A DNA stretch of 39,869 nt. It comes from a bacterium BMS3Bbin09 (GTDB lineage Bacteria; Nitrospirota; Thermodesulfovibrionia; UBA6902). Shown piece after piece: positions 13,944 to 15,797 of this stretch. Each line of letters starts with the position of its first letter. Position 1 is the stretch's first letter. A model generated the notes under the pieces. That model worked only from the letters and a program-made list of their open reading frames with translations, did not search any database and was not told where the DNA came from. Position numbers and translations under genes: made by a program. The stretch is taken from assembly GCA_002897915.1 (NCBI GenBank), contig BDTS01000083.1:1-39869 (forward strand). Direction: 5' to 3'.

Positions 13944-14627
13944 TTAACGAACCGGCCTTTTAATGTTCTGATAATGCCTCTGGGAATTATTGCAAATTTC
14001 ACACGGACCCTGCGGCGCCTCTAAAAGCGTGGAACCGCATACATCACAGACATGAAAATCCAGTTCCATTCCCTCGATCTCTTTTGCCACAAGGCTAAAA
14101 AAGTATCTTGAATATTTATGCATATCGTTGATCGCCACAATATGCTGCTGATGCGATCTCAAGGAGTACATACAGCTGATCACTGCCTGATCGTACGACT
14201 CAATCTTTAACCTCTTGATAAACTCGGGATAGATGTCATTTATCTTTCTTAGCTCATTTTTCGAAGCAATCTGTACATTCTTTTTTGTATCGAGGATGAC
14301 CGTTCTGATCTCAGAGTTTCCAGTCTCCGTGCCGAGACTCGCAAGTATTCTTTTATAGTTTTCAGCATGTACCTTTTCTGATATTTAAAATGCCCTGAAA
14401 AAATAGGCAAGATTGGGGTAATCTTCCTCGATAGCCTTCAGGCAATAGCCATTATAATGTTCGTGTGCAGTAAGCTCCGCAATATAGGCTTCTTTAAGTA
14501 TCTCAGCGGTAACAGGGTAACCACCCAAAATGGATTTTTGATCAGAGGCGAATATCTTTGACATAGGATACCCCGCTGCTATCAAGGTGCAGATGCCGAT
14601 AACTTCCCGCCTGGTAAAATGCCCCAT
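13944..14627 (-). pseudogene. Rubrerythrin-like protein with an in-frame ochre stop
   Basis: The reading frame from ATG 14627 to 13944 is continuous except for one TAA at 14385-14387. Upstream is an export-like start (MGHFTRREVIGICTLIAAGY) and the first di-iron helix (LKEAYIAELTAHEHYNGY). Directly after the stop the same frame continues ISEKVHAENYKRIL, the second iron-binding motif, and ends with a rubredoxin-like CDVCGSTLLEAPQGPCEIC. Rubrerythrins detoxify peroxide in anaerobes. TAA is not a recoded codon, and no good internal start exists before ATG 14183, so the gene looks inactivated by a single recent mutation, or there is a sequencing error. Confidence 0.75.
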
Positions 14628-15002: not shown

Positions 15003-15203
15003 TTAAAGCTTAACAACATTGATCGCTCTGGGGCCTTTTTCGCCAGCCTCAAGATCAAAGCTTACAGCATCACCTTCAGCGAGACTCTTAAAGCCGTCAC
15101 CCTGAATTGTGGTGTGATGAACAAATGCGTCTGTTCCATCTTCACATGAAATGAAGCCAAAGCCTTTGCTGTCATTAAACCATTTTACAGTTCCCTGATT
15201 CAT
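15003..15203 (-). CDS. Cold-shock domain protein (CspA family)
   Basis: The 66-residue protein is a single OB-fold cold-shock domain binding single-stranded RNA and DNA. The RNP1 motif KGFGFI (about 13-18) and RNP2 DAFVHHTTI (25-33) are intact, as is the start [15 protein letters not shown]. Such proteins melt RNA structure and can act as antiterminators. AAAAGGAGG precedes ATG 15203. Its likely promoter is at 15325-15353, giving a leader of roughly 115 bases that contains a terminator-like hairpin (15254-15288), so its own product or temperature may regulate it. A strong terminator closes the unit. Confidence 0.97.
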
Positions 15204-15253: not shown

Positions 15254-15288
15254 AAAAAAAAATCCGCAAAGATCAAAAATCCTTGCGG
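15254..15288 (-). promoter_or_regulatory. Terminator-like hairpin in the csp 5' leader (possible attenuator)
   Basis: On the minus strand CCGCAAGGAT-TTTTG-ATCTTTGCGG forms a ten-base stem followed by A and nine T residues, a complete intrinsic terminator by sequence. It lies between a strong promoter (15325-15353) and the csp start, so transcripts must read through it to express csp. It may also end rhodanese transcripts from upstream. Confidence 0.7.
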
Positions 15289-15380: not shown

Positions 15381-15797
15381 CTAATAATACCTTACCGGCG
15401 CCCTTGTAACAGGGAACCCTGCCTTGTCCATCGCATTCAGACCGCCAACTACAATGTATATGTTTTTGTGCCCATGCTTGCCAAGCAGAAACGCCGCACG
15501 GACGCTTTTTTGGTCATTGGGTCATGTGCAGTAAAATGCGATCTTTGTATCCGGAGACAGAACTGCAAGCTTGGTATCGATCAGGTGAATCGGCACAGAT
15601 AATGCCCCTGTGATATGCATTTCCAAAAACTCGTCAGGTGACCTCACATCCACGATCAGGATCGTCTCGCCCTTATCAATAAGTGCCTTGAGCTCTTTGG
15701 CCTTGATGCGCTGACTGTTATCATCCGCAGCAAAGGCAGGTGTTAGAACTGATAAGAGCACGATTACAGCAATAAGAATTTTTAGTATCCTTAACAT
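15381..15797 (-). CDS. Exported rhodanese-like protein, probable selenoprotein (in-frame UGA)
   Basis: From ATG 15797 the frame encodes a signal peptide (MLRILKILIAVIVLLSVLTPAFA), then a rhodanese domain with IVDVRSPDEFLEMHITGA, and stops at UGA 15522-15524. Past it the same frame continues PNDQKSVRAAFLLGKHGHKN and a GGLNAMDKAGFPV end before TAG at 15381. In related proteins the active loop reads YCxCPN; here it is YCT-UGA-PN, so UGA stands where a Cys is expected. Reading UGA as selenocysteine gives a complete 138-residue domain. The window already contains one UGA-decoding gene. A hairpin 15-33 bases after UGA (15489-15507) could be the SECIS. An inactivating TGC-to-TGA mutation is the alternative. 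A TTG at 15815 is another possible start. Confidence 0.7.

Follow-up and report, generated by a model that had tools for sequence, protein, structure and literature searches.

A predicted exported selenocysteine-containing rhodanese of the Nitrospirota and its double-selenocysteine relatives

Introduction

The 39,869-nucleotide stretch of genome BMS3Bbin09 (Nitrospirota) analysed here, referred to as the window, carries a rhodanese-like reading frame that is crossed by a UGA codon in the active-site loop. Does this codon terminate the gene, or is it read as selenocysteine (Sec), as the original prediction proposed from the letters of the DNA? The question bears on gene annotation, as standard annotation would truncate such genes at the UGA. 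The reading frame, its relatives in the phylum, the downstream hairpin and the decoding machinery of the genome were considered together, and the features discussed are collected in Table 1.

Table 1. Features of the rhodanese locus (positions are those of the window)
Feature	Position	Strand	Evidence or remark
Exported Sec-containing rhodanese-like protein (predicted), 138 aa	15381..15797	minus	ATG 15797-15795, TAG 15383-15381
In-frame UGA, codon 92, predicted Sec92 at the second position of CxU	15522..15524	minus	UGA at the equivalent codon in 6 orthologues
Codon TGC for Cys90, in the canonical catalytic Cys column of rhodaneses	15528..15530	minus	UGA (Sec) in 6/6 orthologues of the order
N-terminal signal peptide-like segment MLRILKILIAVIVLLSVLTPAFAA	15726..15797	minus	Sequence reading; model helix at P0001 residues 2-22
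SECIS-like hairpin of the bacterial type; stem of 7 bp, 15507-15501 / 15495-15489; apical loop CGUGC 15500-15496	15489..15507	minus	Covariation, model limits
Terminator-like hairpin CCGCAAGGATTTTTGATCTTTGCGG + T-run, downstream of the rhodanese gene	15264..15288	minus	Consensus scan only

The gene and its reading frame

The span 15381-15797 given for the gene by the original prediction is exact, and the strand, which had been left unstated, is the minus strand. Numbered from the ATG, the active-site motif FYCTUPNDQKSVRAA (U being the in-frame UGA) begins Phe88-Tyr89-Cys90-Thr91-Sec92-Pro93-Asn94; in the modelled reading (P0001), which starts six codons before the ATG, these are residues 94-100. 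The hydrophobic N-terminus, ending in AFA-A, resembles a signal peptide and is followed by a single rhodanese domain. In a profile search of the own genome with TGA read through, this domain was identified by PF00581 (E 3.5e-17, one TGA inside the match). The read-through protein scores 61.9 bits with PF00581, against a curated cut-off of 22.2, and NF041203 matches it with E 1.1e-18. Homologues with Cys have CxC (LYCTCPNEVSS), and the UGA of the window aligns with the second Cys of this motif, precisely where it had been placed at the outset; the count of 46 coding codons between the UGA (15524-15522) and the TAG stop likewise agrees.

A few features lie near this gene or elsewhere in the window. 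A promoter-like site is present at 15353-15325 on the minus strand, and the terminator-like hairpin of Table 1 sits between this site and a cold-shock protein gene (15003-15203); it may mark the end of the rhodanese transcript or play a role in the cold-shock leader. A ferritin/rubrerythrin-like frame (13944-14627, minus) reads NLAYFFRAF*ISEKVHAENYKRIL, with an in-frame TAA near 14385, and plausible coding continues past the TAA to a zinc-ribbon-like end, DVCGSTLLEAPQGPCEICNN. Since TAA encodes neither Sec nor pyrrolysine, this frame looks disrupted or base-miscalled. Furthermore, group II intron D1-D4 matches (RF01998) occur on the minus strand at 402-539 and 2800-2937, scoring 46.0 and 49.6 bits against 35.

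Coding signal downstream of the UGA

Seven clear orthologues, the window gene included, emerged when 47 genomes of the order were searched with a profile (145-169 bits; next match 74 bits), and all seven have TGA at the Sec92 codon. The Cys/UGA pairs that had been suggested as a check are thus found among the homologues, with UGA in the six orthologues and Cys in the CxC genes. Downstream of the UGA, the protein alignment of the window with each orthologue is gap-free over the 39 residues compared, of which the window keeps 15-20 identical (z 8.6-10.3 against shuffles). Nucleotide differences in this part follow a coding pattern and concentrate at the third codon position (for example, 16/9/28 by codon position versus G402), which is the synonymous bias that the original prediction anticipated; a third-position excess is seen upstream of the UGA too, and coding sequence is accordingly conserved on both sides of it. 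The gap-free alignment, the z values and the coding-type substitution pattern exclude a decaying frame, and the six orthologues are free of indels downstream.

Sec-decoding machinery of the genome

The own-genome search recovered SelA (E 6.2e-160) and SelB (E 1.6e-111), and both lie on the same contig (C41) as a tRNA-Sec with anticodon TCA (UCA) according to ARAGORN. SelD was matched with E 9.6e-99 across one in-frame TGA within GGUAAKVG, making SelD itself a predicted selenoprotein. With SelA, SelB, tRNA-Sec and SelD present, the Sec-decoding trait is complete, and a lack of such machinery, initially named as grounds for rejecting the Sec reading, does not apply.

The SECIS hairpin

The possible SECIS element put forward earlier, a stem AAGCGUC / GGCGUUU whose first base is the 15th after the UGA, proved to be real and correctly placed, with a distance of 21 nt from UGA to loop in the window. 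A hairpin occupies the matching place in all seven genes, among which the loop CGUGC is invariant, 98% of the hairpin cells are standard pairs and three of the seven pairs have changed on both sides. In 500 shuffles neither the fraction of paired cells nor the score for covariation was equalled, and pairing falls to 25-55% when the partner is slid by 1-3 columns. Conservation of the UGA in six orthologues, together with this covariation, lies far outside what chance would produce. Comparison of codons for the same residue gave a codon identity of 61% inside the hairpin versus 40% elsewhere.

More widely, GU in the loop is found in 34 of the 37 Sec-containing rhodaneses of the motif, with the host codon varying between Arg, Ser and Gly, but in 0 of 10 CxC homologues (Fisher p 5.5e-8, a value inflated by the ten CxC genes being near-relatives). 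The percentage of core pairing was dropped as a discriminator in favour of loop GU and covariation, because pairing is nearly as frequent in the CxC homologues (43 of 50 core cells), from which it follows that pairing alone is partly driven by the protein. Support from the single sequence of the window is modest, as the short hairpin core has a minimum free energy (MFE) of -6.0 and 3.8% of the window's synonymous shuffles are equally stable. The bacterial SECIS model sets a loop of 3-9 nt, a stem of 4-16 bp, a spacing of 16-37 nt, a G within the first two positions of the loop and an MFE <= -7.5 (PMC13188914). The window hairpin has a loop of 5, a stem of 7, a G at loop position 2 and a spacing of 21, and the MFE limit is reached by the fold over 48 nt (-9.5), while the short core stays at -6.0.

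These observations decide between the readings of the UGA. In the standard code the codon is a stop, which would leave a pseudogene or a truncated product of 91 residues, and the long end branch of the window in the tree (0.76) as well as a Met near the C-terminus where Trp is usual would suit such a gene; the reading is nevertheless highly improbable, given that the downstream half evolves as coding sequence, six orthologues share the UGA at this position, the SECIS hairpin covaries and the genome encodes the Sec machinery. A sequencing or assembly error turning TGC or TGT into TGA could be suspected of a genome that is a single draft assembly of 115 contigs, but six further genomes, as well as the catalogued CxU rhodaneses, carry TGA at this codon, and a miscall would not account for the conserved hairpin with GU in its loop at the correct spacing; the independence of the six orthologues renders this error very unlikely. 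Both readings were rejected, and we are highly confident that UGA 15522-15524 is read as Sec and that the gene encodes a rhodanese-like selenoprotein. The selenocysteine rhodanese originally predicted is thereby supported, though its description left out the orthologues with two Sec codons and the CxU class that had already been catalogued.

Relatives with two selenocysteines

In all six orthologues (G298, G402, G350, G368, G397, G412) UGA also occupies the Cys90 column, giving the motif FYU-T/N-UP (UxU). Four of these genes lie in the named genome records Nitrospirae bacterium Glo_13, Thermodesulfovibrionia bacterium FCS_M_Nitrospirota_07, Bacterium BMS3Bbin08 and Nitrospira sp. BS150m-G55, and hence add nothing to the count. 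Together with three further rhodanese groups, UxU amounts to 19 genes in 17 genomes. The additional groups are a short paralogue without signal segment (L105, L116, L117, L118; motif FYUGUHGEASAA), a class-wide group without signal segment (L144-L148) and genes inside NF041203 proper (L150-L153), the motifs of the last two, found elsewhere in the class and phylum, being AYUTUKEEHTSARV and LYUAUPSEKTSARV. All three have CxU sisters, which for the short paralogue are L072, L097 and L109. In the UxU genes the UGAs lie 6 nt apart and are followed by a single hairpin, with 21 and 27 nt to its loop, both within the published 16-37 nt (PMC13188914), and one hairpin may well serve both codons.

UxU is absent from the review table and review text covering Sec rhodaneses. 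A UxU rhodanese was also not found in searches of the open-licence PMC literature, where UxU turned up solely for the binding of metal by SELENOP and in one Salmonella paper that seems unrelated. Further rhodanese families of the phylum also have a UGA in the active-site loop, with motifs YUIF.RSPLA, YUKKG.RS.SAA, YUNG.KCWRS and CRG..UGLS (loci L035, L055, L057, L058, L070; L056, L063, L065, L120; L101, L108; L029, L160).

Structure and proposed mechanism

The AlphaFold2 model, with Sec modelled as Cys, has a rhodanese fold (pLDDT 92.5); the PDB entries that it matches best, 2kl3 at the top and then 3ilm and 3gk5, are rhodanese domains as well. In the model a strand ends at Tyr89 (P0001 residue 95), followed by a three-residue turn, Cys-Thr-Sec, and a helix from the next Pro. 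When aligned by profile with solved rhodaneses, Cys90 falls on the catalytic Cys, and the loop has two extra residues relative to the canonical loop, whereas a single-sequence alignment to 6mxv puts Sec92 there rather than Cys90. On the strength of the profile alignment and the strand end at Tyr89, Cys90 is favoured as the catalytic column, and the assignment of Cys90 as sulfur acceptor and Sec92 as resolving residue is the one favoured here.

In the proposed mechanism, SelB and tRNA-Sec would decode UGA 15522-15524 as Sec under the direction of the hairpin at 15489-15507, and the product would be an exported, single-domain rhodanese-like selenoprotein with Sec92 two residues past Cys90, in the enlarged (+2) active-site loop and adjoining the helix start. 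In the periplasm, Cys90 would take up sulfane sulfur or attack a disulfide or persulfide substrate, Sec92 would resolve the intermediate by forming a selenenylsulfide (Cys90-S-Se-Sec92), and the Cys90/Sec92 pair would then be regenerated by a thiol reductase; the six UxU orthologues would run an equivalent cycle through a diselenide. The export of the protein, its sulfur chemistry and the cycle through a selenenylsulfide are inferred, as is the proposed function in periplasmic persulfide/disulfide chemistry, and we give the catalytic cycle via Cys90/Sec92 roughly even chances. No conserved gene neighbourhood or partner gene was found around the six orthologues, and consequently no function can be drawn from context.

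Alternative views of function and origin

The protein could be a selenoprotein that does not transfer sulfur, its Cys/Sec pair serving instead to bind or detoxify a metal or metalloid, or working as a general thiol-disulfide oxidoreductase. Cadmium binding is described for the CxU and UxU motifs in SELENOP (PMC11818150), redox activity is assumed for most predicted selenoproteins (PMC9312934) and the loop of the window gene departs from the canonical rhodanese loop, yet the remaining domain keeps the rhodanese fold and the catalytic Cys column; such a role is credible, at somewhat less than even odds. As regards origin, with the two motif columns masked the window gene falls beside its UxU counterparts from G402 and G397 (support 98/94 in one tree and 96/96 in another). 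Since the window gene is nested among UxU genes, replacement of Sec by Cys at position 90 is the simplest reading; the lineage was probably UxU originally, with Cys90 of the window as a Sec-to-Cys reversion. It could instead be argued that CxU of the window is ancestral and that UxU arose repeatedly in its relatives, as CxU is the common state in the NF041203 group and the first motif position is labile, with at least 8 Cys/Sec changes on a 48-gene tree whose deeper nodes have weak support. Each of the six orthologues from the order is UxU, however, and the window gene branches inside them with the support given above, leaving an ancestral CxU rather unlikely. What we consider likely, though less so than the Sec reading itself, is a Nitrospirota lineage of UxU rhodaneses with one SECIS for two UGAs 6 nt apart, a presumed diselenide cycle and recurrent Sec/Cys switching at the first position, in which the window represents a reversion.

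In this lineage CxC, CxU and UxU form a natural series within a single loop of one fold. The series makes two questions testable, namely whether one bacterial SECIS decodes two UGAs 6 nt apart, and what is gained from a second Sec in an active site that already holds one.

Comparison with known families

To our knowledge, single-Sec rhodaneses are catalogued yet uncharacterised. The catalogued Sec rhodaneses comprise several forms, including form 3 with CxU, NF041203 (PMC13188914, PMC9312934). This family (rhodanese_LYCAU; "rhodanese-like domain-containing protein form 3, CxU" in PMC13188914) has the rhodanese domain in common with the window, as well as a YCxU motif whose second position holds Sec, in the column of Sec92, a SECIS hairpin at equal distance and, in many members, a signal-like N-terminal segment. 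The window nevertheless scores 67.1 bits (59.9 in the six-frame search) against a cut-off of 115 and falls outside the well-supported LYCAU clade (100/99), and its orthologues are UxU; given the score below the cut-off and the position outside the clade, we regard it as a sister lineage of like kind, not a member of NF041203.

Rhodanese domains with CxC in other Nitrospirota (LYCTCPNEVSSARTAFLL, L028, L030, L033 and others) carry the equivalent motif with Cys twice, at 37-39% identity, but have neither Sec nor GU at the loop position and are not short exported proteins. TsoB, a rhodanese/DsbD fusion-like selenoprotein (NF045694), shares the rhodanese domain and is listed with two Sec; its spacing is UxxxxU and it has a DsbD-like fusion part, both lacking in the window, which matches the model in the rhodanese domain only (31 bits against a cut-off of 805). 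Sec rhodanese forms 1, 2 and 4 (PMC13188914) likewise have PF00581 and Sec in the active-site loop, with motifs UxxS/UxxG in place of the CxU of the window. Sec rhodaneses are a known class, to which the present analysis adds the UxU lineage, its presumably shared SECIS and the recurrent Cys/Sec switching at the first position.
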